Assembly (NCBI GenBank): GCA_947258795.1
Contig: CAMYJU010000006.1
Location: 22,294-86,293 of the forward strand
From: an uncultured Gammaproteobacteria bacterium
GTDB lineage: Bacteria; Pseudomonadota; Gammaproteobacteria; DRJJ01
Length of the DNA: 64,000 nucleotides
Direction of reading: 5' to 3'
In this document: positions 4,209 to 46,271 of the stretch, piece by piece
Layout: each line of letters starts with the position of its first letter
Numbering within the stretch: the stretch's first letter is position 1
The notes under the pieces: model-generated
Told to the model about the DNA's origin: nothing
Databases searched by the model: none
What the model saw: only the letters and a program-made list of their open reading frames with translations
Made by a program: the position numbers and the translations under genes

Positions 4209-5939
4209 ATGGGTTCACACAACATCGTTTTTGTATTATTAAGGCGATTACATTCGCCTTTGATTGCACTCATTTGCGTTTACGCGGTTTCCATACTTGG
4301 TTTTGTCCTGATTCCCGGTGTCGACGACAAGGGACAGGCTTGGCATATGGATTTTTTCCATGCTTTTTATTTCGTCAGCTTTATGGGTACCACGATCGGT
4401 TTTGGAGAAATCCCCTACCCCTTTACCGATGCACAGCGTATGTGGGCAACATTATCCATTTATGCAACCGTTATAGTCTGGTTATACGGGATCGGCTTCC
4501 TGTTGACCATATTACAGGAACCAGGCTTCAAACAACTGCTCGGTCAGAACTCGTTTCGGCGTAATATCAAACGACTTCGCGACCCCTTCTTTCTGATATG
4601 TGGATATGGTGATACCGGTAGTAAACTGGTCAAAGCCCTGACCGAGTCTGATATCACTGCTGTAGTTGTAGAAATCGATGCTGACCGAATTAACATACTG
4701 GAGCTGGAAGATCATCGTATCTATGTGCCCGGACTATGTGCAGATGCCTCTATTCCTGAAAGCCTGATCACGGCGGGACTGAAGCAGCGTAACTGTGCCG
4801 GTGTTGTTGCGCTGACCAATGATGATGCCGTCAATCTCAGGGTGGCCATTACCAGTGCACTGCTCAGCCCGGGTGTTCGCGTTATTGCCCGTGCCGAGAC
4901 CAGGGATGCCGAAAAAAACATTGCTTCATTCGGAACCTCGGAGGTTATCAATCCGTTCGAAACCTTTGCCGGTCGCCTGGCCATGGCCCTGCATTCACCA
5001 GGAACCTTCCTGTTGCATGAGTGGTTAACCAGCGTGCCGCATGAAAAGCTGACCGAACCCATTTTCCCACCTCATGGCAAATGGATATTGTGCGGCTTTG
5101 GTCGATTTGGCAAGGCCGTACACAAACGCATGGTCGCCGAGGGTCTCGACGTTACCATCATTGAAGCCACCCCTGAAATGACCGATGCACCAGAGGATGT
5201 CATTACCGGGCGCGGAACCGAGGCTGAAACCCTGGAGAAAGCCGGTATTGAAGATGCGGTGGGTATTGTTGCTGGTACTGATGATGATGCCAACAACCTG
5301 TCCATACTGATAACCGCTGGTGAACTGAACCCGGACCTGTTCATGGTTGCCAGGCAGAACCTGCGCAGTAACGATGCACTGGTCGCGGCCGCCGACCTCG
5401 ATCTGATAATGCGACGCGGAAGTATTATCGCACATAAGATTTTTGCTTTACTACGCACCCCCTTGCTTGCCACATTTCTCGACCTTGCCAGAGAGAAAGA
5501 CGAAACATGGACCAACCTGCTTATTAGTCGTATTGGCGGGATTATCACCGATAGTCCACCACTAACCTGGGAAGTGGATATCAATGAAGATGACGCACCC
5601 GCTATTCATGGGCACCTGATAGAGGGTGAACAGATAACCGTCAGGAATCTTTACCAGGATCCTCAGGACCGTAGCCTTGATCTGCCCTGCATTCCGATCC
5701 TGATCCGACGCTGGAATAATCAGTATATCCTGTTACCCGATGAACAGACCTCGCTGGAGTCCAGGGATCAGGTCCTGTTCTGTGGCATACGCAAGGCACA
5801 GGAAATGATCAAATGGTTGACCAATGATCCACAGGTACTGAACTATGTACTTACTGGCGAAGAGCATCCCAGTGGCTACCTATGGCTCCTGATAACACAC
5901 CGGAGTCAGAAGAAACAGGCTCATCTGGAGAGCGAGTAA
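4209..5939 (+). CDS. Potassium channel protein with two RCK (TrkA-N-like) modules
   Basis: A 576-residue two-helix potassium channel with regulatory domains. Membrane segments lie near 10-32 and 77-100, and between them the pore loop carries the filter TTIGFGE, a variant of TVGYG. Two Rossmann-type RCK domains follow, with nucleotide-binding starts at FLICGYGDTG (near 130) and WILCGFGRFG (near 295), each with its acidic strand end. RCK domains gate channels in response to nucleotides or ions. The gene follows the small membrane protein by ten bases. Its last 89 bases overlap the convergent end of the broken thioredoxin gene on the other strand. Confidence 0.9.
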   Translation: MGSHNIVFVLLRRLHSPLIALICVYAVSILGFVLIPGVDDKGQAWHMDFFHAFYFVSFMGTTIGFGEIPYPFTDAQRMWATLSIYATVIVWLYGIGFLLTILQEPGFKQLLGQNSFRRNIKRLRDPFFLICGYGDTGSKLVKALTESDITAVVVEIDADRINILELEDHRIYVPGLCADASIPESLITAGLKQRNCAGVVALTNDDAVNLRVAITSALLSPGVRVIARAETRDAEKNIASFGTSEVINPFETFAGRLAMALHSPGTFLLHEWLTSVPHEKLTEPIFPPHGKWILCGFGRFGKAVHKRMVAEGLDVTIIEATPEMTDAPEDVITGRGTEAETLEKAGIEDAVGIVAGTDDDANNLSILITAGELNPDLFMVARQNLRSNDALVAAADLDLIMRRGSIIAHKIFALLRTPLLATFLDLAREKDETWTNLLISRIGGIITDSPPLTWEVDINEDDAPAIHGHLIEGEQITVRNLYQDPQDRSLDLPCIPILIRRWNNQYILLPDEQTSLESRDQVLFCGIRKAQEMIKWLTNDPQVLNYVLTGEEHPSGYLWLLITHRSQKKQAHLESE

Positions 5940-6223
5940 TACGGTTTTTTATCTGATCCCGGATTTCAAATACGAGTTTGGAGGGATCTTTCTGAATTTC
6001 CTGGGTTAACAGCATGTTTGCTTCCCGTGTATAACCTGCCATGTGTTTGTTACGCGCCTGCTCACGTAACTCATCTGATTCACGAAATACACCCAGGCCT
6101 TTCAGTAGAACCCGCAATTCATTTTCCTGCATCTGTCCTTGTTGGGTGAACTCTACATTTCCGTCCTTGAAAACCAGCAAGCTCGGAATCCCTTACCTCA
6201 ATTACCAGTGCTTCTTTAATCAT
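5851..6223 (-). pseudogene. Thioredoxin-TPR (YbbN-like) gene with internal deletion
   Basis: The start and end of a thioredoxin-fold protein survive but the middle is gone. From the ATG at 6223 the frame gives MIKEALVIEV, a typical N-terminus of this group. Within about 35 bases the other frame picks up GIPSLLVFKDG, the cis-proline strand and loop near the end of a thioredoxin domain, followed by a TPR-like tail rich in Glu, Arg and Ala. Everything between, including the CxxC active site, is missing, and the two halves are in different frames. The ATG lies one base after the stop of the SnoaL-like gene, so the pair was probably one operon. The 3' end overlaps the convergent channel gene. Confidence 0.7.
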
Positions 6224-6224
6224 A

Positions 6225-6635
6225 CTATTGCAAAGTCTCGTTTGTCTGTGCTGTTTGTACCAGTGACCCTTGATGCTCGACCATCAGCCATCCATTTGCA
6301 AATTTCCTGTAAACATTGGTTGCTATGACCACGGCCATGACCATACCATTACCCATTATTTCTTCAGAGACGACATGTACCGCACAATCGTCTGATTCGA
6401 TCTTGTTGGCAACAGTATAACGAATCTCACCCGGATGGCTGTCAGCCAGTATATGATCCCAGCTCCTTACTACCGCATCCCGGCCGATAATGGCGCCGGA
6501 TCCCGGGTGGATACAGATCACATCACCTTCTGCCCATAACGCCGCCATTACCTCCCTGTCCCCACGCATAAAAGCTTCATAGAAGACGGTTTCGGCTTCA
6601 TCGGGAGATTTGATATGGAGAGATGATTTGGGCAT
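6225..6635 (-). CDS. SnoaL-like / NTF2-fold protein
   Basis: A 136-residue protein with the pattern of the SnoaL/DUF4440 NTF2-like fold: an N-terminal helix with AETVFYEAFMRGD, then VICIHPGSGAIIGRDAV and a run of alternating beta strands ending in WLMVEHQGS. Members include small hydrolases, isomerases and ligand-binding proteins, and the product cannot be assigned a reaction. There is no signal peptide, so it is cytoplasmic. It is followed one base later by the broken thioredoxin gene. Confidence 0.78.
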   Translation of the reverse strand: MPKSSLHIKSPDEAETVFYEAFMRGDREVMAALWAEGDVICIHPGSGAIIGRDAVVRSWDHILADSHPGEIRYTVANKIESDDCAVHVVSEEIMGNGMVMAVVIATNVYRKFANGWLMVEHQGSLVQTAQTNETLQ

Positions 6636-6947
6636 TTGTTATAAATATATGTGTGTAATATATAAATACAAGTGTCATTTTGTATAGCATAGAAATAACA
6701 AGAATTTGTCAAAATCCCGGCCGATACACGGATATATTACCTACAGTTACCCGGTCGAACAGCCGATAGAACTTGTTGTATTCAGGGTATCCATGATCAT
6801 ATTCTAAATTTATATTTTATAACATATTGTTTTATTTAGTTTTTATATTATTTGCACTAACAATCATCGTGGCAAATATCTATTCAGTTTGTGTTCAGCC
6901 AAGTTCTGTTTTAATTACTCTGCAACATTCTGAAAGAGGGTAACGCT
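6636..6947. promoter_or_regulatory. Divergent AT-rich intergenic region
   Basis: Upstream of both the SnoaL-like gene (minus) and the repeat lipoprotein (plus). On the minus strand TTGACA (6712-6707) precedes a weak -10 candidate TGCTAT (6689-6684) at 17 bases. On the plus side GAGGG lies just before the ATG at 6948. No gene is apparent. Confidence 0.3.
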
Positions 6948-7772
6948 ATGCACAGTCGTATTCATAAACGGTTCCAATTATCACAACACAGCATCATTAG
7001 ATTAGGTCTGATATCGCTTGTCATAATCAGTATAGGCGGCTGTGTCACCAATACGCGGCATGGCGATGACTACGGATATTACAGCGGATATTCTCCTGCC
7101 CCTGTTACCAGGTATTATGAGTACTACTACTATCCGGAACAGAATATCTATTACGATATCCATCATCATGTATACCATTACTATCACTATGACAGGGGAT
7201 GGATAATCGTAAAACAGCTGCCAAGACACATTCACCTGTCCCACAGGTACAATAAGAAACTGAAGTACCGTCACAGCCGGCCATGGACTGAGTCACATGG
7301 ACATAAACAGCACCATATGCACCATGATAAACCTCATGCTCACCGCCCGCACGGTGATCGTCCCCATGCCGATCGTCCACACAACCGGCCGCACGGTGAT
7401 CGTCCCCATGCCGATCGTCCACACAACCGGCCACACGGTGATCGTCCCCATGCCGATCGTCCGCACAACCGGCCGCAGGGTGATCGTCCCCATGCCGATC
7501 GTCCGCACAACCGGCCACAGGGTGATCGTCCCCATGCCGATCGTCCACACAACCGGCCGCACGGCGAGCGTCCCCATGCCGATCGTCCGCCTAATCGCCC
7601 AAATGGCGAAGAAACCATAAACTACCGTGTCAAAAAAGAAGCCAGGCAAGACAAATCAGGCAAACAGAAAGGGAAGAATCGTAAAGAGCATCGGAATTCA
7701 CACCGGAATGCCGATAAAAAGGAATACAATTTGAACGAAAAAGAGCGAAAAGAGCGAAAAGAAGAAGACTAG
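6948..7772 (+). CDS. Lipoprotein with His/Tyr-rich region and tandem Arg-Pro-His repeats
   Basis: A 274-residue predicted outer-envelope lipoprotein. The signal peptide ends in a lipobox (SIGGC, Cys near residue 32). Next comes a Tyr/His-rich stretch (about 40-85), then six copies of a 14-residue repeat of the type RPHGDRPHADRPHN (about 134-217), and finally a very basic Lys/Glu/Arg tail. The His density suggests metal binding or charge-based adhesion; this is inference. It is not a recognised family. The gene is followed by a bidirectional hairpin. The tail contains its own short run (AAGAGCGA-type) at 7740-7770. Confidence 0.75.
   Translation: MHSRIHKRFQLSQHSIIRLGLISLVIISIGGCVTNTRHGDDYGYYSGYSPAPVTRYYEYYYYPEQNIYYDIHHHVYHYYHYDRGWIIVKQLPRHIHLSHRYNKKLKYRHSRPWTESHGHKQHHMHHDKPHAHRPHGDRPHADRPHNRPHGDRPHADRPHNRPHGDRPHADRPHNRPQGDRPHADRPHNRPQGDRPHADRPHNRPHGERPHADRPPNRPNGEETINYRVKKEARQDKSGKQKGKNRKEHRNSHRNADKKEYNLNEKERKERKEED
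7348..7599 (+). repeat. Six tandem 42-bp repeats inside the lipoprotein gene
   Basis: The unit starts CGCACGGTGATCG and repeats at 7348, 7390, 7432, 7474, 7516 and 7558 without spacers. Copies differ by a few substitutions (for example CACAC/CGCAC and GGGTG/CGGTG) and the last copy is the most diverged. Because 42 is a multiple of three the array stays in frame, so copy number can vary without breaking the protein. The array also leaves long antisense frames open. Confidence 0.93.
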
Positions 7773-7780
7773 CTCCGTAG

Positions 7781-7824
7781 TACAGGGTCAGGGAACTTTC
7801 CTAGGATGAGTTCTCTGACCTGTA
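7781..7824. terminator. Bidirectional GGGTCA-type hairpin
   Basis: TACAGGGTCAGGGAACT (7781-7797) pairs almost fully with AGTTCTCTGACCTGTA (7809-7824). It lies between two convergent genes and overlaps the stop of the DUF1499 gene. It is one of several related GGGTCA hairpins in this window. Confidence 0.65.
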
Positions 7825-8265
7825 ACTTGATCGTATACGCTCCACACGCTGCCGGTTAGCCCCCAGGTCCGACTTACCTACCCGGGATGCTGATCGAATA
7901 TGGATAAGACTGCTTTCACTGTCCAGTCGTAACTCAACATCATCAACAAAGCGCATCAATGGTGTCACATATTGAGCGTGCAGATAACCTTCATTCTCTG
8001 CCGTAATTTTGCCGCCTGTTTCGATAATAATCAGCTTTAGGCGATGCCAGGCATCCTCTGCTGTTGTGCTATACGCTAGCGGCTCAATAAAAGCCTTTTC
8101 ATCAGGTCGTTCACTGCATACACAATTCGTAGATTGCGGACATGCACGCAACTGTTGTTCGATCAGCCCAAGCACAGGCTGTTTACGGGAAGCAACAGAC
8201 AGCATGATCAATGCAACAATAATAATCAGAGCAAGACTGATAATGATATAAAACAGTATTTTCAT
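7801..8265 (-). CDS. DUF1499 family membrane-anchored protein
   Basis: A DUF1499 protein of about 154 residues with one N-terminal membrane helix (about 2-23), followed by the CPQSTNCVCS segment and the later pattern with RFVDDVELRLD and IRSASRVGKSDLGANR that marks this family. The conserved function is unknown. I placed the start at base 8265, where the hydrophobic helix begins (MKILFY); an upstream in-frame ATG at 8346 would add a short Lys/Cys-rich stretch and lacks a clear ribosome site. It is convergent with the repeat lipoprotein. Confidence 0.75.
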   Translation of the reverse strand: MKILFYIIISLALIIIVALIMLSVASRKQPVLGLIEQQLRACPQSTNCVCSERPDEKAFIEPLAYSTTAEDAWHRLKLIIIETGGKITAENEGYLHAQYVTPLMRFVDDVELRLDSESSLIHIRSASRVGKSDLGANRQRVERIRSSYRSENSS

Positions 8266-8454
8266 ACCAATATTTTCAATAATTTCCCAGGCAGTTGCCA
8301 GTATATCAACACAATTATTCTTACATTTTTTAAGCCTCACCATCACATCACATACACCATGCCCGGTGTATGGTTATTATCTGATCATCACGCTTGATCG
8401 TAGTATCTATTAATTCTAGACTGTCATTAACAACAAAAAGCAGAGGGATAAGCA

Positions 8455-9423
8455 ATGAGCATACAGCGTGCAGCATTCACCAGTATTGTTTCTCTACTCC
8501 TGACCACTCTGGCAATGCCGGTCAGTGTACAGGCCAAGGAACGTGTAGTATTCAGCGGTGGCCCGGCGGGTGGCACCTTCCAGGTGGTCGCCAATGCGAT
8601 CCAGGTCTATAAGCCCATTAAGAAGTCGAAGGATTTCAGGGTCAAGGCCCAGTCTTCAGCCGGTTCGGTGGAAAACCTGCGCAAGGTTAACTCCAGCAAG
8701 GCACAAATGGGCGTGGTTTACTCCGGTCATGTTTACCTGGGTCGAAACGGCAAGATGAAAAATGACACGCGCAAGTATGAAAATGTCATGGCCGTCGCCT
8801 GGCTGTATGGCGCGCCAGCACAGTTAATCGTACGCAAGGGGTCGGGTATCAAGTCCGTCAAGGACCTGGTTGGTAAAAAGGTTGGTGTCGGCAATGCCGG
8901 CTCCGGTGCCTTTGCAAACTGTGAATTGTTTTTCACCCACCTCGGCATCTGGGACAAGATCGAGCGTAATGCAATGGGCTACAACGATGCCGCGCAGGCC
9001 TTCGGTAACAATCAGCTGGATGCATTCTGGCTGTTCACCGCGTTTCCCAGTGGTGCTGTGATCATGGCGGCCCAGACCAACGATATTGATATGATCAACC
9101 TCGGCAAGGACGCGACCGATTCCGGCTTTTTCGACCAGTATCCATACTTCTCTAAAATCACGGTACCAGCTGAAACCTATCGTGGTGTCGGCTATGAAAG
9201 CCCGTCATTCCAGGATTCCGCCCTGTGGGTGGCCAACTCAAAAGTCTCCGCCGATACCGTCTATAAGATGCTGTCTGCCATCTACACGGATGAAGGCCTG
9301 GCTCATATGAGAGCACAGAAAAAGACGTTCAAGAACATGAGCCTGAAGACCGGCACTCAGGGCGTCGTCACGCCCTGGCATCCTGGTGCAATCAAATTCT
9401 GGAAAGAAAAAGGCATGATGTAA
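8455..9423 (+). CDS. TAXI-type TRAP transporter solute-binding protein
   Basis: A periplasmic binding protein of 322 residues. A signal peptide ends near residue 27 (SVQA). The mature start carries FSGGPAGGTFQ, the signature of the TAXI branch of TRAP binding proteins, followed by the SAGSVENLR segment. It delivers a small, usually anionic substrate to the membrane subunits; the ligand cannot be read from sequence. The fused permease follows 90 bases later, with a terminator-like hairpin in between that would keep binding protein in excess over permease. The start has the purine-rich AGAGGGATAAGCA site. Confidence 0.9.
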   Translation: MSIQRAAFTSIVSLLLTTLAMPVSVQAKERVVFSGGPAGGTFQVVANAIQVYKPIKKSKDFRVKAQSSAGSVENLRKVNSSKAQMGVVYSGHVYLGRNGKMKNDTRKYENVMAVAWLYGAPAQLIVRKGSGIKSVKDLVGKKVGVGNAGSGAFANCELFFTHLGIWDKIERNAMGYNDAAQAFGNNQLDAFWLFTAFPSGAVIMAAQTNDIDMINLGKDATDSGFFDQYPYFSKITVPAETYRGVGYESPSFQDSALWVANSKVSADTVYKMLSAIYTDEGLAHMRAQKKTFKNMSLKTGTQGVVTPWHPGAIKFWKEKGMM

Positions 9424-9436
9424 GCATTAGCAGGCG

Positions 9437-9463
9437 GGCCCGGATGATAAAACCGGGCCTTTT
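9437..9463 (+). terminator. Intra-operon terminator or attenuator
   Basis: GGCCCGG (9437-9443) pairs with CCGGGCC (9453-9459), followed by TTTT. It separates the binding-protein gene from the permease gene and probably gives partial termination or protects the upstream message. Confidence 0.75.
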
Positions 9464-9512
9464 GGTTGAACTGGCCTGACAGGTTCTGAAAACAACAACC
9501 CAGAGGAATCAC

Positions 9513-11234
9513 GTGCGCGCAGAGCAATTGAATAAAATCGAACTGCTGCTGTTCGATCTGCTAGCTCTGGCACTGGTATTATTCTATTCCTATTCGGCGG
9601 TCATTGCTCCGGCCGCCACCCAGTGGCATCGCGGCATTTACGTCGTCATTACCTACGTACTGGTATTCCTGCTGTATCGCTCACCGGGCCAGCTTGGCCG
9701 TGTCTGGGATTATTGTCTAATGGTGGTATCAGTTATCACACTAGGCTACTGGATACTGAACTTTGAGGCGATCAACTATCGCGTCGGTGCAGAAACCCCA
9801 GTCGACCAGTGGATTGCTATGGCTGGTGTACTGGTTGGCATTGAGGTCGCACGCCGGGTAGTCGGTAATGTCTTCGTGATTATTGGCACGATCATGCTGC
9901 TGTATGGTGTATTCGGTGAGTATGCCCCTGAACTGATCTCCCATGCCGGCGACACCTTTCCATATCTATGCACCAGTATCTTCTATAAAAGTGACGGCGT
10001 GTTCGGCATCATGGCCAATGTACTGGCTACCTATATTATCCTGTTTGTGATTTTTGGTGCCTTTCTTGAAAAAAGTGGCGCCCAGCGCTTTTTCATCGAC
10101 TTTCCGCTGGCCGCCGTCGGACATAAGATCGGCGGACCGGCCAAGGTCTCGGTTATTGCCAGCGGGCTGTTCGGGTCCATTTCCGGTAGTGCCATTGCCA
10201 ACACTGTCTCAACCGGTGCGTTTACCATCCCAATGATGAAAAAGGCCGGCTTCAAGCCGCATGTCGCCGGCGGGATCGAACCTGCCTCTTCCATAGGCGG
10301 GATGTTCATGCCCCCGATCATGGGTGCTGGTGGTTTCATTATGGCTGAGATGACCGGTCTGCCCTACTCACACATCATGCTGGTCGCGATATTCCCGGCG
10401 CTGATGTATTTCTTCAGCGTATTCATGATGGTGCATTACCATGCGAAAAAGCACCAGATAGTCGGTGAAAGAAGCGGCGAAAATGCCATGGATATCCTGC
10501 GCACGGAATGGTTCTATGTCTTGCCATTGGTGGTTATTACCATCCTGATGTTGATGGGCTACTCTCCGGGTTATTCCGCGATCCTCGGTATCGTAACCTG
10601 TATTGTTGTCAGCTGGTTCAAAAAAGACACACGTATCGGCCTGAAAGAATTTGTAATGGCCTCACGTGCAGGTGCCGAGTCCAGTCTGAAAATCGGTGCA
10701 ACCGTCGGTGTAATCGGGATTATTATCGGTGTGCTGACCTACAGCGGGCTGGTGCTGACCTTCGCCGACATCGTCATAGAACTGGCCGATGGCGAACTGT
10801 ACCTGACCATAATCCTGATTGCACTGGCCTCCTTGATCCTGGGCATGGGCGTTCCGGTAACCGCCGCCTATTTGATTACTGCCGTGGTCGCCGTACCGGC
10901 CCTGACCCACCTGGGTGTCAACGAAATCGCCGCTCACATGATCGTATACTGGCTGTCGCAGGACTCCAATATCACCCCACCGGTGTGTATCGCTGCCTTC
11001 GCCGGCGCAACAATCGCCAAGGCCAATATGTGGGCCACCGCCTGGGTGGCATTCAAGTTTGCCAAATTCCTGTACCTGGCACCGTTTATTTTCGGTTATG
11101 TCCCGGCATTTTCACTCAATGGCAGCGCCACCGATATTCTCACCACCTTCGTATTGGTGTTCTTCGGCACCTGGGCCTATAGCTATCTGTTAAGTGGTAT
11201 CTGGTTGAAGTGGTTCAGAAAAGCAACAGCATGA
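9513..11234 (+). CDS. TRAP transporter fused permease (DctQ-DctM)
   Basis: A 573-residue inner-membrane protein in which the small 4-helix and large 12-helix TRAP subunits are fused, as is usual for TAXI systems. The N-terminal 110 residues form about four helices; the rest is the large transport subunit with the GLFGSISGSAIANT and GMFMPPIMGAGGF loops and later LGMGVPVTAAYL. It uses an ion gradient (commonly sodium) to import the ligand carried by the TAXI protein. It is preceded by AGAGG, and its TGA overlaps the next ATG as ATGA, so translation of the thioredoxin-like gene is coupled to it. Confidence 0.93.
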   Translation: MRAEQLNKIELLLFDLLALALVLFYSYSAVIAPAATQWHRGIYVVITYVLVFLLYRSPGQLGRVWDYCLMVVSVITLGYWILNFEAINYRVGAETPVDQWIAMAGVLVGIEVARRVVGNVFVIIGTIMLLYGVFGEYAPELISHAGDTFPYLCTSIFYKSDGVFGIMANVLATYIILFVIFGAFLEKSGAQRFFIDFPLAAVGHKIGGPAKVSVIASGLFGSISGSAIANTVSTGAFTIPMMKKAGFKPHVAGGIEPASSIGGMFMPPIMGAGGFIMAEMTGLPYSHIMLVAIFPALMYFFSVFMMVHYHAKKHQIVGERSGENAMDILRTEWFYVLPLVVITILMLMGYSPGYSAILGIVTCIVVSWFKKDTRIGLKEFVMASRAGAESSLKIGATVGVIGIIIGVLTYSGLVLTFADIVIELADGELYLTIILIALASLILGMGVPVTAAYLITAVVAVPALTHLGVNEIAAHMIVYWLSQDSNITPPVCIAAFAGATIAKANMWATAWVAFKFAKFLYLAPFIFGYVPAFSLNGSATDILTTFVLVFFGTWAYSYLLSGIWLKWFRKATA

Positions 11235-11686: not shown

Positions 11687-11787
11687 CTATACACCTGAAG
11701 AACTGAACACAATAGTGACACCCTGGTCACACATGACGCAATCATTATCGTAGCAAGCAGTGTCCTGTTTATTCGCAGCCAGATCAA

Positions 11788-12753: not shown

Positions 12754-12756
12754 CTA

Positions 12757-20068: not shown

Positions 20069-20390
20069 TTATACCAATGGATTGATTTCTGAAAGATAAC
20101 TTTCCTTGCTTACATAATGTATCGTCTGCCAGCCAGTAATGCATGCGTATTCAATATAGGACATACTGTCATCTATGAATAGAATCTCGGTCGGCGATAA
20201 CCCGAGATCCCGTGCAATATCGTCAAATAATCCCGTGTCTCGTTTGCCCTTGCCCAGGTAAAAACTTTTGAAGATATGATCGAAATCATTGCTCTTTTAC
20301 CAAAGCCACCAGGCCGTCACGAAACCCTTCATCCGCAATAACGCCGCCATAATCGAACAGGATTGCCTTGACTGGAAACTGGATCATCAT
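20069..20390 (-). pseudogene. HAD-family hydrolase with internal deletion
   Basis: The first frame from the ATG at 20390 gives AILFDYGGVIADEGFRDGL, the motif I region of a haloacid dehalogenase-like phosphatase, and stops after 34 codons. A second frame, joined near 20287, gives DHIFKSFYLGKGKRD and then ILFIDDSMSYIEYA with GWQTIHY, which are the motif III/IV end of the same family, and stops at 20069. The central cap and motif II are missing and the halves are in different frames. The deletion has therefore inactivated the gene. It lies directly upstream of the HhH gene and was probably its operon partner. Confidence 0.75.
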
Positions 20391-34238: not shown

Positions 34239-35305
34239 TTAATTTTCAGTATAATCAATACTAAGCCTGTCGCCGGCAATTGGCCTGAACAATTTATCCG
34301 CAAACGCAACATGATCCGGGTGGTCGCGATAACTATCGATCACACTTTCATGCACAAACTCTATCAACCAGGTGAATTTGTATTTTTCATTCTCCTGTAC
34401 CGCGTTACCGGTGACCACACGGCGAACCCCCGGGATCCTGCTTAATATCTTTTGCCCTTCACTCAGGACATGCGCTACCTGTGCGTCATCAGCATCAGTG
34501 TTAAAGATAATCACGTGATGGACCGGTTGCCAGGCTTCCGATACAGCCAGCACCTCATCCGCCTGCCCTGCCGAACCCCAGTTCACCATGCAGCGCTCGA
34601 CCTCGGCACGGATCGCGTCCTGTATGCCACTTACAATCCCGGTATATCCGCAGCGATCATCTGCGTCGACATTCGCACGCATCTTTGAACCGGCCGCGTC
34701 TGCCAGTGCAGTATAGTAATTAATCTTGGAAACACCATTAGCGATCAGTTTACTGAACTGTTCGTCTGATAGCCCGGTACCACCATGAATCACCAGCGGG
34801 ATATTCAGGGCTTCATTGATTTGTTGCAGACGATCAAAATCCAGCACCGGCTTACCCTTCATGCGCCCGTGTACCGTACCAACCGATACCGCCAGGAAAT
34901 CAACCCGTGTCTGATCGACATAGGCCTTTGCCTCATCCACCGAGGTATAGATCACCTCACCGGGATGCTTTTCTGCATCTTCACCTTCCACGCCGGCGAC
35001 ATAACCCAGCTCCCCCTCAACCGGCACACCGCAGGCATGGGCCATGTCAACGATCTTTCGGGTTATAGCCACATTGCCATCAAACGCCTCATGCGAGGCA
35101 TCCACCATTACACCGTTACAACCAACGTTAATCGCTTCTACGGCTGATTCAAATGAGGGAGTGACAGAATCAGCGGGGACCTTTTCGCCTCTGCAGCGGA
35201 CATGATGGCCTCCAGAAAATCCAGGCTGACCAGGTCAAAACCACCCACCGCATAACCATTACGGTAAGCGTGTTTCAGCATATCTCGCAAATTGACTAAA
35301 GGCAC
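34239..35305 (-). pseudogene. Class II aldolase-Dabb fusion with internal deletion
   Basis: The N-terminal part (from a GTG at 35305, seven bases after AGGAGG) reads VPLVNLRDMLKHAY, YAVGGFDLVSLDFLEA and ends near SPLILSL. The other frame then begins PSFESAVEAINVGCNGVMVDASH and runs through the class II aldolase core (GELGYVAGVEGEDAEKHPGE, VSVGTVHGRMKG, VIHGGTGLS) into a C-terminal Dabb-type stress-responsive barrel (about the last 95 residues). The junction near 35165 has lost the stretch that normally carries the first zinc His and catalytic Asp, and shifts frame. The 289-codon downstream frame has its own ATG at 35108 but would lack catalysis. Confidence 0.8.
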
Positions 35306-38474: not shown

Positions 38475-38943
38475 TCAGGCAGGTGCCAGACTGCGTACAG
38501 TAATCGGCTGCTCAAAACCCTTGATTTCAATGATTTGCTCAGGGGAATAGTGAAAGCGTGGGTTGCCTTTCGTTTCTGAGTAAACGAACTCTGGCACAAT
38601 AATAGACATCGGACCTGCAAACCCGCATAAACGCGCGGCCAGGTTCACGGCTTCCCCGACTATCGAGTAGTCCAGGTGCTCGGGAGAACCGATATTACCA
38701 ATCACGGCCGGACCCTGACTGATCCAGCAATACACCGTCAAAGTGAGCTTCCCGAGAAAGCCTGATGGCCTGCTCACCACTCTCTGCCTCAACGACCCGA
38801 TATCCATCTTTCTCCAGGTATCGCCGGAGTAACACGCACATGATTGACTGGTCATCAACAACCAGAATGGTTTTGTGTTGCTGTTTTATCACTTTATCAA
38901 TGGGACTTGTACGCCATTTCCTCAATAATATTAAATAATTCAA
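38475..38943 (-). pseudogene. Response regulator / class III cyclase with internal deletion
   Basis: The frame from 38943 gives a receiver-domain start, KTILVVDDQSIMCVLLRRYL, up to FDGVLLD (the phosphoacceptor strand), and then breaks. The other frame gives GPAVIGNIGSPEHLDYSIVG and EAVNLAARLCGFA, the end of a class III adenylate/guanylate cyclase catalytic domain, to the stop at 38475. The rest of the receiver, any linker and most of the cyclase are missing. The two halves are fused near 38705 and out of frame. Such receiver-cyclase proteins are normally several hundred residues long. Confidence 0.8.
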
Positions 38944-38949
38944 TCGAAA

Positions 38950-39434: not shown

Positions 39435-39800
39435 ATGATGACTAAAAACTGCCCAAAAATTACTGGATTTCATCTCAGTCATGACAAACTGTCACGGGAA
39501 AACATGTGTTACTCAGGCACTGGCGGTGTCAGTAATGAAAACCGTTCACTCGGTTTTATACCCGCTTTTTGTGATACCGATAGCGGAAAGATTTATCTGT
39601 CCTGTCACAAAGATGGCACGCAGGCGGCTATCCATATGCTGGATGGATTACCTGACAAACTGGTTACCGCAAGAGATGCACAACACAGGATCATCGCGAT
39701 CAAACCATCGGTCATACCAGGTTTTGTCAAAGAAGGCCATTTCTACACTAGGGAACAAGCCGCTGAAAAAGTGATTAGTAAATCAGAAGACACCAATTGA
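39435..39800 (+). CDS. Hypothetical protein
   Basis: A 121-residue protein without a signal peptide or membrane segment. It contains GFIPAFCDTDSGKIYLSCHKDG, HMLDGLPDKLV and KPSVIPGFVKEGHFYTREQA, which look like ordinary folded-protein segments. I do not recognise the family. It stands alone; the second ATG at 39438 is an equal start. Confidence 0.55.
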   Translation: MMTKNCPKITGFHLSHDKLSRENMCYSGTGGVSNENRSLGFIPAFCDTDSGKIYLSCHKDGTQAAIHMLDGLPDKLVTARDAQHRIIAIKPSVIPGFVKEGHFYTREQAAEKVISKSEDTN

Positions 39801-39970
39801 TTCTATCTGATCGGGTATTAGTATTTTAAGCCAACTTGTCTGTCAGTCGTTTAGCTAATCTGCTTCCATAGCCCCATTTCGGAACGTCTATTCGCTCCTG
39901 TATTCTATATACGATTCTGTTGCTATAATATAAAGATATTCATTCTGACCCGTTTTTGAGGAAAAACGTC

Positions 39971-40762
39971 ATGAAAATTTTATCGCTGCTAAAGGCGAGC
40001 TCAATGCTTGTAACAATATTGACGACGTGCAATCTGCACGCTTCAGATGTAGACAAGGAGAAACGCTGGGCAGACCAGATCATCGATACCCTCATGGTCG
40101 GTGATGCAGAATGGTTAACTGCTGAAAAACATAAATTCCTGGGTATCTATACTGAAAGCGAAAATGACAAACCTGCTGGTGCAGTTATCGTCTTGCATGG
40201 TATTGGCGTTCACCCAAACTGGGAGGATGTGGTTCAACCACTACGCAGTGAATTACCCGAATCTGGCTGGCATACCATTGCTGTGCAAATGCCGGTGTTG
40301 CGCAATGAGGCCAAAACAGAAGACTATATTCCCCTGTTCCCGGAAGTGGCTCCGCGTTTAGATGCCACTATCGCTTTTTTGAAAGGTAAAGGGGTCCGGA
40401 ATATTATCATTGCAGCTCATAGCCTTGGAGCCAGCATGGCAGCGTATTTTATGGCCGGCAAACCCGACCCGGCAGTCAAGGCCATGATAGTCGTCGGGGT
40501 TTCTGGCAGATTAGCTCCAGGTGCCAATGTGAATTTTCTGCAATCCTTACAAACCATTCAGATACCTGTTCTGGATATTTATGGTAGCGAAGATCTGAAA
40601 GCTGTATTGGACACGGCCAGCAAACGGGCAAGTACTGCGGAAAAAGCAGGTAACAAACATTACCAGCAAACCATGGTTCCTGATGCCGATCATTTCTTTA
40701 AAGGCAAGTCAGACATACTTGTCAAGCAGGTTGTAAACTGGATCAAGCAGTATCGTCAATAA
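39971..40762 (+). CDS. DUF3530-like exported alpha/beta hydrolase
   Basis: A 263-residue protein with a signal peptide (about 1-24) and an alpha/beta hydrolase fold of the DUF3530 type: VIVLHGIGVHPNWE forms the oxyanion strand, IIAAHSLGASMAAYF the nucleophile elbow (Ser in HSLGA), DIYGSEDL carries the acid, and PDADHFF the catalytic His. It is probably a periplasmic esterase of unknown substrate. The ATG at 39971 is preceded by GAGGAAA; an upstream TTG would be needed for a longer form. A GGGGTCA hairpin follows the stop. Confidence 0.83.
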   Translation: MKILSLLKASSMLVTILTTCNLHASDVDKEKRWADQIIDTLMVGDAEWLTAEKHKFLGIYTESENDKPAGAVIVLHGIGVHPNWEDVVQPLRSELPESGWHTIAVQMPVLRNEAKTEDYIPLFPEVAPRLDATIAFLKGKGVRNIIIAAHSLGASMAAYFMAGKPDPAVKAMIVVGVSGRLAPGANVNFLQSLQTIQIPVLDIYGSEDLKAVLDTASKRASTAEKAGNKHYQQTMVPDADHFFKGKSDILVKQVVNWIKQYRQ

Positions 40763-40794
40763 CCAGCCCGGCTAACTGCCTGGCAACCAGGGAT

Positions 40795-40847
40795 AACGGG
40801 GTCAGAAATGTATAATTAGTGAATGCCTTCGCTCTGACCTCCGTTTT
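40795..40847. terminator. GGGGTCAGA-type hairpin
   Basis: AACGGGGTCAGA (40795-40806) pairs with TCTGACCTCCGTT (40833-40845) with one bulge, followed by TTT. It ends the DUF3530 gene and overlaps the end of a possible small frame on the other strand. Confidence 0.7.
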
Positions 40848-40971
40848 ATTTCACAACATGAATATCGTTACCTAGTTCCGCAATCAGCTTCTGCTTATCC
40901 TGATGACCCTGGCTTTTTTTGACATCCAGGTTTGACTCTACCATTTGGCAGCCGCTCTCCACGATAATCAT
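40846..40971 (-). other. Possible 41-codon gene or gene end
   Basis: On the minus strand an ATG at 40971 opens a 41-codon frame with one Cys and a plausible protein-like C-terminus (KLIAELGNDIHVVK). It lacks a strong ribosome site and lies in a gap otherwise without genes. Given the other broken genes nearby it may be the last part of a lost gene. Confidence 0.25.
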
Positions 40972-41077
40972 TATTATTTGACCAATAGTATAGCCACTGG
41001 CATAAACTTTTATACAGAACTACCGGTTGATCCATCCATTTACTGTATAAATATAAAGGTATTCAGCTTTTTTGTAT

Positions 41078-41653
41078 CTAGTCTGTGCTCGCTTGCTTGT
41101 TCGTTTCCAATAACTTTGCCGCCTGCCGGTAACTCAAACCCTGTATACCACTTTTTATCATTGAGGTTCTTAAAGAGGCCGCAAGACCTGATGCCAGGGC
41201 ACGTTGATAGAAAGGCAATGACGCAACATAAAACGGCAATGCCTCGTCTATCAACTGCCTTGATTCCAGAAGTTGTTCCATTACTTTTTTCTGTTGTCTA
41301 ATCAGACCCATCAATATTGGGTCACGGGCCGCTGCCTCATCGATATTCAGCGTCCAGGTAACATCCTTCTGCAACATACATTGACCCACATATTGACCAA
41401 ATGAATCGCCTCCCCATTCATCGGGAGATATGAGCGATAGCCTGAACAATGATGCTTGTTTGTACAAATAATAGTGCTTGCCAATTACCGGCCTGAAGCC
41501 AAAACTGCTGTGCAGAACAAACAGGGAGGTAAACAACTCATTACTGATTTGCTGTATATCCTTGGCTGGTACAGGTACCATCGCCCGACTATCCGTCAGG
41601 CTATCCAATACAGGTGTTAATCCCTTGCCTTGTGGGTTAGGATTTATGCTCAT
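41078..41653 (-). CDS. DUF2452-like protein
   Basis: A 191-residue soluble protein. The start (NPNPQGKGLTPVLDSL) and the segment with KHYYLYKQASLFRLSLISPDEW fit the DUF2452 family, whose function is unknown to me. It starts six bases after the stop of the thioredoxin-HEAT gene, so both are on one transcript. No catalytic motif is visible. Confidence 0.65.
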   Translation of the reverse strand: MSINPNPQGKGLTPVLDSLTDSRAMVPVPAKDIQQISNELFTSLFVLHSSFGFRPVIGKHYYLYKQASLFRLSLISPDEWGGDSFGQYVGQCMLQKDVTWTLNIDEAAARDPILMGLIRQQKKVMEQLLESRQLIDEALPFYVASLPFYQRALASGLAASLRTSMIKSGIQGLSYRQAAKLLETNKQASTD

Positions 41654-41659
41654 ACTTGC

Positions 41660-42298
41660 TTATTTCAGATCTTCCAGACTTTCCTTTGCAGTCTGTCTTA
41701 CCTGTGCATCTTCATCATCCAGCATCGCTGTGAGCGGCTCAATCACAGTATCCGCATAAGTCAGAGAAAGATAATGACAGACATCGATACGGATTGGCGG
41801 ATGTTCATGCTGGATCAAACCAATCAGACCAGGAATGATTTCCCTGATCTCATCCGTGTCCTCAAAATGCTCCATCACTGCACCAATACCGAGCCGAACA
41901 TTGATTTTGGCATTAGGGTCTGCCAGTAAAGGTAGAATATCCTCAAGCCTGGCCCTGCCCTGTTCGAGCCAGTCGATTACTTTGGCCAACTTGCCGTTTT
42001 CGAGCAGGTATGCAAAATAATGACTGATTCCCGTGTCGGATGAAAACTCATTGATCCAGTAATCCAGCTCGCCTGGTGTCAATGCCCCGTCAAATACAAA
42101 CTCGCCCAGTTGCAGCCAGGGTACCGATCGCACCTGGTATTTTTCAGCTATTTCGGGAGATTGCTCGATATTGATTATATTCAGCTGCTCAAACTGACCA
42201 GCCTCATTGCGTTCATTCAGCAGGTTTTTCAATGCGCGGCAGTGCGGACAATGGGTCGATGTTAACAAAGTGACTACAGGCTTATTCATCTTGATCAA
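41660..42298 (-). CDS. Thioredoxin-fold protein with HEAT repeats
   Basis: A 212-residue cytoplasmic protein. Residues ~5-85 are a thioredoxin/glutaredoxin fold with the redox pair CPHC in TSTHCPHCRALK and a cis-proline strand in VRSVPWLQLG. Residues ~115-212 contain HEAT-like helical repeats (ARLEDILPLLADPNAKINVR, DEDAQVRQTAKESLEDL). Such fusions are seen in sulfur- and iron-oxidising proteobacteria, but the substrate is unknown. The DUF2452-like gene follows six bases later. Confidence 0.82.
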   Translation of the reverse strand: MIKMNKPVVTLLTSTHCPHCRALKNLLNERNEAGQFEQLNIINIEQSPEIAEKYQVRSVPWLQLGEFVFDGALTPGELDYWINEFSSDTGISHYFAYLLENGKLAKVIDWLEQGRARLEDILPLLADPNAKINVRLGIGAVMEHFEDTDEIREIIPGLIGLIQHEHPPIRIDVCHYLSLTYADTVIEPLTAMLDDEDAQVRQTAKESLEDLK

Positions 42299-42421
42299 TA
42301 CTTTCTTTTAATTCGCTCTACGCGCAGGTTTAACATCCGCGTAATAACTGGCACCCATCCATACTGCAGAGATGCAGGGTCGAGGCGCAATCAGAAACAA
42401 CTACGATTTTACCCTGTTTGA

Positions 42422-42823
42422 TTACATTGCCTGGGCAAGATAGGCTCCCAGTCTCATATCGGTGGTCAGGATATGTTCGGTTAACCAGCGCTCCAGAAAA
42501 ACGATATCGTCATCCACAACCTGTTTGCCTGCCGCAACAACCTTCTGTTGCAATCCCTTGGCACTTTCAATGAGTTCCCGGTGCTCTTCCTTATGCTCTG
42601 CGTAGCCGTCATAGCCGTATTTCACCATCAGGCGTTCTTCATGACTGAAGTGCCAAACCGTACAATTGATCAGTTCTTCCAGTACCGCAGCGAGGTAATC
42701 CGGATCTTCACCTTCCGTTACCGCATGATTAAGCATATTAAACAGCTTCACCAGTTTCTTGTGATCATCATCGATCTCATCGACCTCGACACTTAACACC
42801 TGGCGCCACACTAACTCTTTCAC
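42422..42823 (-). CDS. Bacteriohemerythrin
   Basis: A 133-residue single-domain hemerythrin, a four-helix bundle that binds oxygen at a di-iron site. The iron ligands are in place: His in DDDHKKL, the helix with WHFSHEERLM, the HKEEH pair and HILTTD near the C-terminus. It can carry or sense oxygen in microaerobic cells. It is divergent from the sulfur-globule-like gene, with an FNR-like box in between. Confidence 0.93.
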   Translation of the reverse strand: MKELVWRQVLSVEVDEIDDDHKKLVKLFNMLNHAVTEGEDPDYLAAVLEELINCTVWHFSHEERLMVKYGYDGYAEHKEEHRELIESAKGLQQKVVAAGKQVVDDDIVFLERWLTEHILTTDMRLGAYLAQAM

Positions 42824-42956
42824 AAGTATTCTCCCGGATTGTTATTAAACACTTCTCTCCACAGGCTGCTTAATCAATAGTTTACGCTTTTTGTAGTGCT
42901 AACAAAAATACTGAGTCCGTTGGTTTGACCAATCACTCAGCTTATTAGCGGCAAGT

Positions 42957-42998
42957 TTGATTCTGATCATTTTTTCATCAAAATTACCATTTTATTAT
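42957..42998 (+). promoter_or_regulatory. FNR-type box and -10 of the sulfur-globule-like gene
   Basis: TTGATTCTGATCAT (42957-42970) matches the FNR consensus TTGATNNNNATCAA at nine of ten fixed positions. TATTAT (42993-42998), a near-consensus -10, lies so that a start site about seven bases downstream (near 43005) would place the box centre at about -41.5, the classic class II activator position. Confidence 0.7.
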
Positions 42999-43068
42999 TT
43001 AGATCAGATTTGCTAGCGGGCATCACTTTGCTATGTCACTTAACCATGTAAGAAGAGAGGGAAATTCA

Positions 43069-43368
43069 ATGAAAAGTCTGAAGAAAATCCTTGTACTTGC
43101 CGGGTTGCTAGGCGCCTCTATCATGTCCATGTCATCAGCAAATGCATTCTGGTGGCCATGGGGTGGGCCTTGGGGTGGAGGTCCATGGGGAGGTTATCCA
43201 TATTATGGTGGCAATCCTTACTACGGAGGCCACCCTTACTATGGCGGTTATCCTTACCACGGCGGCTATCCGTACTATGGTGCTTATCCTCACTACGGCT
43301 ATCCCGCGTATACGCTGCCACCAGCACAACAGCCTGCCGCACCGGCAAAACCTGAAGAAAACAAATAG
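43069..43368 (+). CDS. Sulfur-globule-like secreted Gly/Tyr/Pro-rich protein
   Basis: A 99-residue protein with a signal peptide ending near SSANA (about residue 25). The mature part begins FWWPWGGPWGG, continues with repeats of the type YPYYGG and ends in a Pro/Ala/Lys-rich tail. This composition, repeat style and size match sulfur globule envelope proteins of gammaproteobacterial sulfur oxidisers; related low-complexity secreted proteins cannot be excluded. I chose the ATG at 43069, which has AGAGAGGG before it. The FNR-type promoter suggests induction when oxygen is low. A strong terminator follows at once. Confidence 0.72.
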   Translation: MKSLKKILVLAGLLGASIMSMSSANAFWWPWGGPWGGGPWGGYPYYGGNPYYGGHPYYGGYPYHGGYPYYGAYPHYGYPAYTLPPAQQPAAPAKPEENK

Positions 43369-43382
43369 TAATGCATCCACAC

Positions 43383-43411
43383 AAAGGGCGGAGTCATTGC
43401 TCTGCCCTTTT
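43383..43411 (+). terminator. Rho-independent terminator of the sulfur-globule-like gene
   Basis: AAAGGGCGGAG (43383-43393) pairs with CTCTGCCCTTT (43400-43410), one G-U pair, followed by T residues. Confidence 0.85.
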
Positions 43412-43457
43412 ACCCTATTGAAAAAGAGGTCAGCAACAAGGTAATAAATTTCTCACA

Positions 43458-43498
43458 GTGTGACCAACTCCCATTTATTGGATTGACCTTGGTCACAC
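43458..43498. promoter_or_regulatory. Inverted repeat upstream of the EF-hand gene
   Basis: GTGTGACCA (43458-43466) and TGGTCACAC (43490-43498) form a nine-base inverted repeat. Inside it TTGACCTTGGTCAC (43483-43496) is itself dyad-symmetric and distantly FNR-like. It is a candidate operator for the gene starting at 43590. Confidence 0.4.
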
Positions 43499-43589
43499 AT
43501 GATCTACCTTAGTAGAGCGATATAGAAGTCAATCTAGGTTGTAGTTATTAAATGTGTATAGCCAGATTCACGTCATGGAGGGTATGACT

Positions 43590-43913
43590 ATGAAATATGC
43601 TGTAATCACCACACTGTTAACATTCCTTTTCACAGGTGCGGCTATGGCCGGTGGTGCCACGGGATCGGGAAAAGGCGCAGAAAAAATGGGACTGGGCGCC
43701 GGGCAAAGTATGGAACAAATGCGTGCCACCCAGGAACTGCGTTTCCGAAATATCGATGGCAACCAGGATGGTTTTATTACCCGTAAAGAGGCAGAAAACC
43801 ATCAACGCCTGATCACTAACTGGGACAAGGCCGATGCAAATGCAGACGGCAAGCTGGACTCAGCCGAGTTCAGCGCCTTTGAGGAAGTCGTACCACCGGG
43901 ACGCAATCCTTAA
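43590..43913 (+). CDS. Secreted EF-hand protein
   Basis: A 107-residue protein with a signal peptide (about 1-20) and two EF-hand calcium loops: DGNQDGFITRKE and DANADGKLDSAE. It should bind calcium in the periplasm or outside the cell. The ATG at 43590 follows GGAGGG at the right distance; an upstream in-frame ATG overlaps that site. Its promoter region contains the 43458-43498 inverted repeat, and a GGGGTCAGA hairpin follows. Confidence 0.88.
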   Translation: MKYAVITTLLTFLFTGAAMAGGATGSGKGAEKMGLGAGQSMEQMRATQELRFRNIDGNQDGFITRKEAENHQRLITNWDKADANADGKLDSAEFSAFEEVVPPGRNP

Positions 43914-43931
43914 TCTATTATTTATATCTTC

Positions 43932-43981
43932 GGGGTCAGATAACATAACGCGCTACTCCAGGCCGTTGGGTATCTGGCCCC
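43932..43981. terminator. GGGGTCAGATA-type hairpin
   Basis: GGGGTCAGATA (43932-43942) pairs with TATCTGGCCCC (43971-43981) across a 28-base loop, between convergent genes. Confidence 0.65.
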
Positions 43982-43989
43982 ATCAACCC

Positions 43990-44907
43990 CTAATTGCTCT
44001 TCCCGTTATGTGACCACAGACTGGCCAGTACCGACCCAGACAAGTTGTGCCAGATACTGAAGATGGCACCTGGCAGCGCGGCCAGTACTGAAAAATACTT
44101 GATCGCCAGCGCAACACTGAGACCGGAATTTTGCATACCAACTTCGATCGCTAATGTACGGCAGGTCTGTTGATCATAACCCATCCATTTGCTTACCCAG
44201 TAACCGCCAAGCAAGCCTGTCAGATTATGCAGAATGACCGCGGTCATGATCACGAAGCTCAACTCACTGATACGAGCCTGGTTAACCGCTACGATAATGG
44301 CGATGATCAGCACAATCGCGATCACGGAGATCACCGGAAACAGTGGTTTGACGGGTTTTAATCTCGGTCCGGCCAGATGATTAATCAACACGCCTATCAA
44401 TACCGGTGCAATCACGATTTTCAGTACCGTTAACAGCATTCCCCATACCGGCACTGGAATTCGTTCACCGAGATAGAGCCAGGTAAGTGCCGGCATCGCC
44501 ACAACGGCCAGCAAGGTTGAACACAGCGTGAGTGTAATCGACAAGGCCACGTCGCCTCTGGCCAGATAACAGATCACGTTGGAGGCAGTGCCGCCTGAGC
44601 TGGCCCCGACCAGTACCATACCGATCAACAGTGGCAGCGGCAGTTTCAGCCCTATTGATATCATGTAGGCCGCCAAGGGCATGACCAGGAACTGCAAACA
44701 TACCCCGATCAGAATGATGCCAGGAGTTTGACCCACCCGTTTAAAGTCTTCCATGGTCAAGGTCATACCCATACCAAACATGATCACGGCCAGTAGCGGA
44801 ATGATGCCGGGTTTCAATGTGGTAAAGGGTTCCGGAAAATAATAAGCGATACCTGAAAGCAACAAGGCCCAAACGGGGAACAGATGGGTGATAAATTTAA
44901 CCAGCAT
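43990..44907 (-). CDS. Bile acid:sodium symporter (BASS) family transporter
   Basis: A 305-residue membrane protein with about nine to ten helices. The helix-breaking segments GASSGGTASNVICYLARGDVALS and the EVGMQNSGLSVALA stretch near the C-terminus are the crossover motifs of BASS carriers, which import small organic acids with sodium. The substrate cannot be read. A LysR gene lies just upstream on the same strand (31 bases). Confidence 0.9.
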   Translation of the reverse strand: MLVKFITHLFPVWALLLSGIAYYFPEPFTTLKPGIIPLLAVIMFGMGMTLTMEDFKRVGQTPGIILIGVCLQFLVMPLAAYMISIGLKLPLPLLIGMVLVGASSGGTASNVICYLARGDVALSITLTLCSTLLAVVAMPALTWLYLGERIPVPVWGMLLTVLKIVIAPVLIGVLINHLAGPRLKPVKPLFPVISVIAIVLIIAIIVAVNQARISELSFVIMTAVILHNLTGLLGGYWVSKWMGYDQQTCRTLAIEVGMQNSGLSVALAIKYFSVLAALPGAIFSIWHNLSGSVLASLWSHNGKSN

Positions 44908-44937
44908 TTACGTTTTTCCCCTCCACAATATTGATTA

Positions 44938-45846
44938 TTAATCCACGTCCTTACCAACAATAATTGCTTTCTGCTTCTGTAATTCCTCTACCAGGAAATC
45001 TCGAAAAATACGAACTCGTGCAGTTGTGCGCAAATCCACATGCGATAACACCCATAATCCCCAGCCACGTTCGACAAAGGCCGCCGGAATGCGGTGTAAA
45101 TCAGTCTCTAAATCACCAAATGCACATGGCATCTGGGCCATCCCCATACCCAGTTGCACCATTTTCAACATCAGGCCCAGCTCAGTGGTGCGATACACAC
45201 GTCTGGTGTTCGGGAAACTTTTCTCGATCCACGGCGGCCGGGTATGGCCATCGCCGATCCAGGTGATACAGGGTACATCCCCACTGTCGGGGTCTGACTG
45301 AATCCTTTCCAGGATGTCTTTGCTACCATACACGGCATAGGCGATGCGACCAATACGTTTACCAACCAGGTTGGACGGCGGGTTGTCAGTAGACCGGAGT
45401 GCGACATCGGCTTCACGAGACGCGAGGTTCAACTCATCACGGGTCGCGATAATCTCCAGGTCCACCTCCGGGTACTGTTCTGTAAAGGCCTTCAAGGCCG
45501 GTAACATCAGCGACTGGGTGCAGACATCGGCTACAGTAATGCGTAATAAACCACTGAGTTCCTGACTGTCAGCCATCACATGCCGTTGTATACTGTCAGC
45601 CTCTTCCGACATACGCTCTGCGGTACTCACCAGCTCCTCACCGATCGCAGTAATCATCCAGCGCTTGCCATCACGAACAAACAGACTTTTACCGAGATAT
45701 TGTTCCAGTGCAGCTATACGACGTGAAACCGTGGTCTGATTGACACCAAGTGTTTCTGCAGCAGCGGATACCGAACCAGCGCGAACGACTTCAAGGAAAT
45801 GCTTTACCCCATCCCAATCCAGTTTATGCATATTTGCATTATTCAT
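44938..45846 (-). CDS. LysR-family transcriptional regulator
   Basis: A LysR regulator of about 302 residues: winged helix-turn-helix near the start (AGSVSAAAETLGVNQTTVSR and RRIAALEQYLGKSLF), then an effector domain with SGLLRITVADVC. I place the start at 45846 or the ATG two codons earlier; a longer frame to 45927 is unlike the family. The BASS gene follows 31 bases after, so both may be transcribed together from the GCATTA-rich region upstream. The divergent gene upstream is the broken SRPBCC gene. Confidence 0.85.
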   Translation of the reverse strand: MNNANMHKLDWDGVKHFLEVVRAGSVSAAAETLGVNQTTVSRRIAALEQYLGKSLFVRDGKRWMITAIGEELVSTAERMSEEADSIQRHVMADSQELSGLLRITVADVCTQSLMLPALKAFTEQYPEVDLEIIATRDELNLASREADVALRSTDNPPSNLVGKRIGRIAYAVYGSKDILERIQSDPDSGDVPCITWIGDGHTRPPWIEKSFPNTRRVYRTTELGLMLKMVQLGMGMAQMPCAFGDLETDLHRIPAAFVERGWGLWVLSHVDLRTTARVRIFRDFLVEELQKQKAIIVGKDVD

Positions 45847-45878
45847 GTGCATTAATCTCAATATACAAGCATTAATGC
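45834..45878. promoter_or_regulatory. GCATTA-repeat region upstream of lysR
   Basis: The sequence TGCATTA recurs: GCATTA at 45835-45840 and 45849-45854, and as the perfect palindrome GCATTAATGC at 45869-45878. Spaced repeats of this type before a LysR gene suggest autoregulation. Confidence 0.45.
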
Positions 45879-45946
45879 ATATTATAACCTCTATTTCGTA
45901 AACCGCATCATGTACCCGATTAGCCAACCTACAGGAGTGTTACAAC

Positions 45947-46271
45947 ATGAAACTGAAGCGGATTCGGCAGGAATTGACTATCAATGTGGCGCCTGAGCGC
46001 ATGTGGGAACTGCTGTCGCAATATGGCTATGTCGCCCGATTTCACGCCGGCATGTTGGAATCACACTCAATAGCCAGCAGTAAAGACCAGGACGGACCTG
46101 GCTGTGATCGGCTCGGTCATATCTATGAAAAGTACGAATGGAAAAATTTCCCGATACACAAAATAGCTGGGCTACAAACATTATGCCGAAACCGGTGAAC
46201 GGCATGTCCCGATCAAGCAACTTAAAACCCGTTACAAAGACATGAAGCCTGTGGAGGTGCAATATGGATGA
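45947..46271 (+). pseudogene. SRPBCC-family gene with internal deletion
   Basis: The frame from 45947 gives a START-like/SRPBCC start (LTINVAPERMWELLSQYG, then VARFHAGMLESHS), continues to YEWKNFPIHK and stops. The other frame picks up GYKHYAETGERHVPIKQL and KDMKPVEVQYG and stops at 46271, overlapping the next gene. Most of the ligand-cavity strands between YEWKNF and GYKHY are missing, so the product would not fold. The next gene starts inside its end, which shows they were translationally linked. Confidence 0.72.

Follow-up and report, generated by a model that had tools for sequence, protein, structure and literature searches.

Missing blocks in six genes of an uncultured gammaproteobacterium, probably the result of recent deletions

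The stretch analyzed here (the window) comprises 64,000 bases, G000:C6:22294-86293, of the 3.36-Mb draft genome of an uncultured Gammaproteobacteria bacterium (42 contigs, 97% complete). Six of its genes lacked blocks of coding sequence: a thioredoxin-TPR gene, a HAD phosphatase, a class II aldolase-Dabb gene, a receiver-cyclase, an SRPBCC gene and an alpha/beta hydrolase. From the sequence, these are probably genuine pseudogenes, made by recent deletion in genes whose functions are dispensable to the cell. Missing lengths were measured against intact homologues, using fixed peptide anchors on either side of each gap. Nine lesions were found in the six genes, of which eight could be measured (69 to ~617 bp), two being in frame and six frame-shifting, and in five of the six genes more than 30% of the length had been lost. 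The intact homologues were longer and held the missing block (for SRPBCC, one homologue).

The original prediction described five loci (5851-6223, 20069-20390, 34239-35305, 38475-38943, and 45947-46271) as N- and C-terminal parts of one family in different frames, with the middle lost as a block. This was borne out for all five by comparison with intact homologues. Pfam agreed for the aldolase and the receiver-cyclase, while the pieces of HAD, SRPBCC and thioredoxin-TPR, on which Pfam was weak or silent, were assigned from homologues. Among the further suspected spots, that at 56.0-56.2 kb belonged to the sixth broken gene, the hydrolase (ORF 56074-56820; ORF, open reading frame), and at 37.0-37.3 kb and 47.6 kb no gene fragment was found by comparison with local proteins. 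No further clear break was seen among 50 other window ORFs run through Pfam (hydrolase among them), about 11 of which had no Pfam match; unscanned ORFs included 3815-4198, 6948-7772, 59801-61846, 61899-62546, and 62652-63515. Block deletion with frameshift also occurred beyond the window, in atpC, a second glycogen phosphorylase and cheR-cheB. The predicted observation holds, and its extent is a little greater than first described. The remnants are listed in Table 1.

Table 1. Remnants of the six broken genes, in window positions
Remnant	Position	Strand	Evidence
Thioredoxin-TPR, N-terminal	6194..6223	-	MIKEALVIEV, matches MSEQALVFEV of L034
Thioredoxin-TPR, middle (residues ~79-150 of 289), other frame	5980..6192	-	42-64% identity to six homologues
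HAD phosphatase, N-terminal	20289..20387	-	Homologue comparison
HAD phosphatase, C-terminal, other frame	20072..20281	-	Homologue comparison
Aldolase-Dabb, N-terminal	35159..35305	-	PF01116 profile 1-46
Aldolase-Dabb, C-terminal, other frame, 305 codons	34242..35156	-	PF01116 85-277 and PF07876 (Dabb)
Receiver-cyclase, N-terminal (receiver)	38722..38880	-	PF00072 (Response_reg) 1-50
Receiver-cyclase, C-terminal (cyclase), other frame	38478..38714	-	PF00211 (Guanylate_cyc) 101-175; L044-L046
SRPBCC, N-terminal	45947..46123	+	G080 homologue L143, 172 aa
SRPBCC, short middle (EKYEWKNFPIHKI), same frame	46127..46165	+	One homologue
SRPBCC, C-terminal, other frame	46167..46268	+	Homologue comparison
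Alpha/beta hydrolase, N-terminal (residues 1-245), 87 bp lost in frame near 56293-56302	56173..56820	-	Homologues
Alpha/beta hydrolase, C-terminal (residues ~353-407 of 428), other frame	56012..56150	-	Homologues

The thioredoxin-TPR gene, presumably YbbN/CnoX-like, lacked 203 bp between its N-terminal and middle remnants (two homologues concur) and, as a second lesion, its 3' half of ~140 C-terminal residues. Its six intact homologues (L034-L039) were 289-290 aa long; in five the alignment stopped near residue 150, and in one it went on weakly as far as 187. The HAD phosphatase lacked 287 bp against each of three homologues, and five intact homologues measured 203-221 aa. For the aldolase the loss was 106 bp against each of two homologues, and its C-part was 84% identical to a protein from a Granulosicoccaceae metagenome-assembled genome (MAG). 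The receiver-cyclase had lost 605-617 bp (three homologues), with intact forms at 340-363 aa in three cases and a fourth match of 515 aa. With one homologue as the only ruler, SRPBCC showed two losses, of 69 bp (in frame) and then 134 bp (frame change). In the hydrolase the frame-changing loss between the two remnants was 322-325 bp, and a relative of 244 aa (P0141) departed from the family at a different place.

The broken families were patchy across genomes, which suits the loss of dispensable genes. Strong matches were found in 6 of 142 other genomes for thioredoxin-TPR (any match in 20), in 6 of 142 for HAD (any match in 13) and in 1 of 142 for SRPBCC, and for the aldolase 4 of 55 genomes had a match spanning almost the full query. 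The genome set held a single genus mate (G001, 81% complete), all others being members of the same class. In the genus mate there was no match to thioredoxin-TPR, HAD or SRPBCC; the aldolase drew canonical-aldolase-like matches and the receiver-cyclase receiver-domain matches only, so none of the original five genes had an orthologue-like match there. As a guide to synteny it was useless (a single 279-base match within 19.9 kb). The named relatives of the aldolase came from Granulosicoccaceae, Gammaproteobacteria, Kaarinaea, and Thioalkalispiraceae; contig scans of named relatives gave no locus in the first and two loci in the second (60% and 72% identity). Some of the losses, inside and outside the window, are covered by paralogues, namely a canonical aldolase on C3, an 818-aa phosphorylase on C4 and a second ATP synthase epsilon-type gene at C7:186489.

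A count of the kind that the original prediction had proposed for the whole genome was run on a sample of 864 kb (800 kb elsewhere plus the window). The queries were 291 ORFs from G019, a reduced genome, and 1561 ORFs from 1.6 Mb of G035, a complete one. Given these limited references, counts of block losses outside the window are lower bounds. None of the 57 G019 queries with a spanning best match showed a frame change. The G035 proteins matched 214 loci (210 kb, 11 loci inside the window) with three frame changes, one of which (C3:287852) was rejected as it reads as a frameshift of G035 itself. Two block lesions were thus observed, in the aldolase and in atpC, where the window's rate would predict 16.4 if taken as 5 lesions per 64 kb (P = 1.1e-5) and 29.5 if taken as 9 (P = 7e-11). 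The lesions therefore largely avoid conserved genes, atpC being the exception. In the reverse direction, 14 of 204 G035 loci showed a frame change, in most cases through a shift of a few bases or an insert of 272-295 bp, indicating that the method sees small frameshifts where they are present; no clear small frameshift of this genome's own was found among the 214 loci. In-frame gaps of at least 8 residues were about as frequent in this genome (8) as in G035 (7), and hence uninformative. Internal stops in 9 of 357 best matches were considered as nonsense pseudogenes and none was clear: four fell within alignment columns 1-28 next to a normal ORF, three were antisense to an ORF of this genome and two lay past an ORF end.

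Three block losses were found outside the window. In atpC, encoding the ATP synthase epsilon subunit (G000:C3:83937-84282, L059), 77 bp were missing, with a frameshift in the C-terminal domain. The other two emerged when 175 zones poor in ORFs were compared with local proteins. The second glycogen phosphorylase (G000:C3:69898-70493, L058) had an internal loss of 1834-1837 bp, its N- and C-parts lying in different frames, and is flanked by ORFs that we take to be acetate-kinase-like and phosphoketolase-like. At G000:C2:89313-89614 (L101) the front of cheR runs, with a change of frame, into the end of cheB. Of the six broken window genes, a Viterbi scan of coding potential flagged the aldolase alone, and the scan's counts elsewhere were therefore unused.

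Most junctions, read by eye from conserved codons without ancestral DNA, shared 0-1 bases. In atpC, TCCG fitted the expected codons on both sides (~4-6 bp shared, by eye); V-R was the most frequent pair of residues at this place, occurring in 41 of the 118 relatives that have the motif. The phosphorylase and receiver-cyclase junctions shared perhaps four bases (by eye).

The suggested mutator phenotype, taken here as one of mismatch repair, found no support, as MutS was a single 943-codon open frame and no excess of small indels was seen (MutL lay outside this comparison). End joining by Ku/LigD found no support as a cause either, no PF02735 (Ku) match being found in the genome. RecC gave no match in 38 of the 56 genomes searched, this one among them, and no link to the deletions is drawn. 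No repair defect was shown. The likely route would therefore be Ku-independent illegitimate joining. Such joining, over short or no matching sequence, would excise blocks of ~70 to 1800 bp at any point of the chromosome. Cells hit in a needed gene would almost all be eliminated by purifying selection, and the surviving lesions would lie in accessory or duplicated genes. A bolder version, in which an active deletion process independent of Ku outpaces every other kind of inactivating mutation, seems to us unlikely; dispensable genes of this lineage would then be lost nearly always through recurrent removal of blocks of ~70-1800 bp, more than one in a gene, and hardly ever show point lesions. Nor was deletion-biased genome reduction, another of the causes first suggested, apparent, the genome being 3.36 Mb with an ORF cover of 84% in the window and 86-94% in six sampled contigs (155-357 kb each).

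Several observations weigh against recent deletion in the cells, and most of them concern the state of what is left. Three of the six window genes (thioredoxin-TPR, SRPBCC, and hydrolase) carry two lesions. A gene with two deletions should also show small lesions and relaxed substitution, and these were hinted at only in the hydrolase and HAD. Across 1141 retained codons of seven genes there was no stop between anchors and no clear small frameshift; a further small deletion may have affected the end of the hydrolase, whose final ~20 residues do not go on in the frame of the C-remnant. Conserved columns were compared for the aldolase, atpC, thioredoxin-TPR, receiver-cyclase, HAD, and hydrolase, with SRPBCC outside the test. 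The aldolase departed at 2 of 193 columns, including the 305 codons past the frameshift, and was as well kept as its intact homologues; atpC departed at 0 of 67, including 30 codons past the frameshift, and was equally well kept. That one lesion lies in atpC, a core gene, also weighs against the deletion of spare functions. Departures in thioredoxin-TPR (2 of 21) and receiver-cyclase (8 of 43) fell inside the range of their homologues, while those in the hydrolase (5 of 53) and HAD (5 of 34) were high, a level reached by 1 of 19 and 1 of 5 homologues, respectively. Relative-rate counts were mixed, at 24 to 16 and 23 to 17 for the aldolase, and 10 to 0, 9 to 2 and 7 to 2 for atpC. Those for HAD and thioredoxin-TPR did not differ significantly, and those for the receiver-cyclase varied with the outgroup (27 to 5, 18 to 14). 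The hydrolase gave 26 own changes versus 12 (p = 0.034) with one outgroup; two further outgroups gave 14 to 11 and 11 to 8, respectively. An aldolase comparison with P0002 as outgroup (52 vs 0) was void because P0002 equals P0003 there. Relaxed constraint, which very recent deletions would not have to display, was thus not seen in the aldolase, atpC or thioredoxin-TPR, was hinted at in the hydrolase and HAD, and was mixed in the receiver-cyclase. The retained parts look alive, with mostly normal conservation, implying either very recent deletions with block deletion as the main lesion, or middles that are absent from the assembly and present in the cells.

The latter would arise if the assembler or gap closer had joined the flanks of strain-variable, low-coverage genes and dropped the middle, the genes being intact in the cells. 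We regard such a collapse, of a kind also raised in the original prediction, as the main rival reading, possible if on balance doubtful. It would account for blocks without clear small lesions, for the normal constraint that the aldolase and atpC show before and after the frameshift, and for two lesions per gene in three cases, and it is in keeping with a 42-contig draft that has N-run joins. Local misassembly of drafts can leave missing blocks of such size without Ns, and conserved genes are then expected to be hit too, whereas here they were nearly unhit. An evenly spread assembly fault therefore does not fit, and the collapse still stands in a form limited to strain-variable genes, in which the fault must avoid conserved ones. 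Sampled contigs of 155-357 kb would also speak against heavy strain mixture, a lesion of ~1.83 kb is long for a closed paired-end gap, and no long overlap was seen at the junctions by eye. The 864 kb contained N runs of 44, 90, and 39 bp, so gaps have not been stripped wholesale from the assembly.

The sparing of conserved genes together with the undecayed remains would be explained by a mixed population, in which deleted and intact alleles coexist and the assembly shows the deleted one. This is improbable, as no species-level intact allele occurred among the listed proteins for the three genes searched, where the nearest reached 84% (aldolase), 70% (hydrolase), and 86-87% over the N-part (atpC). 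Still less credible is that the short forms work as minimal proteins, or that recoding over the frameshift allows them to be expressed. Their retained codons are conserved, and Escherichia coli tolerates an epsilon subunit without its C-terminal helices. Core segments are nevertheless gone in most of them (e.g., over half of the receiver-cyclase and the greater part of the thioredoxin fold), and recoding cannot bring back missing codons. Among the relatives listed, moreover, the long form was held by 112 of 119 for the aldolase (at least 370 aa), 19 of 25 for the hydrolase (422-432 aa) and 119 of 119 for AtpC (138-144 aa). Seven aldolase relatives were shorter than 370 aa. Three of these, P0010, P0081, and P0108 (289-290 aa), have as their first residue the internal Met with which the C-part ORF of the window begins, and count both for functional short forms and against recent deletion; they lie on contigs of 2245, 928, and 921 bp and may have been cut at a contig end or carry a like break.

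If the deletions are real, these genes resemble the deletional pseudogenes of other bacteria, in which unselected genes are likewise inactivated by deletions (Kuo and Ochman, 2010, PMC2916853). In that study, 346 of 378 Salmonella pseudogenes carried a single lesion and 32 multiple lesions, the single lesions included 141 short deletions and 131 stop codons among the 346, and a small fraction of pseudogenes had lost >20% of their length. By comparison, the window's nine lesions in six genes were all blocks and five of the six genes had lost >30%. Multiple lesions affected 3 of 6 genes here versus 32 of 378 there, which also tells against recent deletion. Early host-restricted genomes such as SOPE share truncating deletions among their lesion types; in SOPE, almost half of the genes were pseudogenes, with expansion of insertion sequences (IS), stops, and frameshifting indels (PMC3914690), unlike the nearly intact conserved set found here, in which no clear small lesion was detected. 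We do not claim that a block-only pattern is unreported.

Some features were recorded in passing. A His-rich ORF at window positions 7300-7770 contained tandem repeats of an RPHGDRPHAD-like unit, and a 39-base N run (G000:C6:86294-86332) lies immediately past the right end of the window. The gene at G000:C3:198621-201014, presumably metal-ATPase-like, was 11 residues shorter than in G035 in one stretch, in frame. In G035 itself, a ~285-bp repeat on C1 (e.g., 464397-464687) occurred in at least 60 copies, including the query, at 94-100% identity within the first 800 kb, several of them within reading frames.

Recent deletion of spare functions, if real, would make these genes a clean set of freshly gutted ones, in which the block-deletion step is visible before point decay, and would raise the question of what joins the ends without Ku. 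If the deletions are not real, the same loci would be a warning that good-looking drafts can report living accessory genes as dead.

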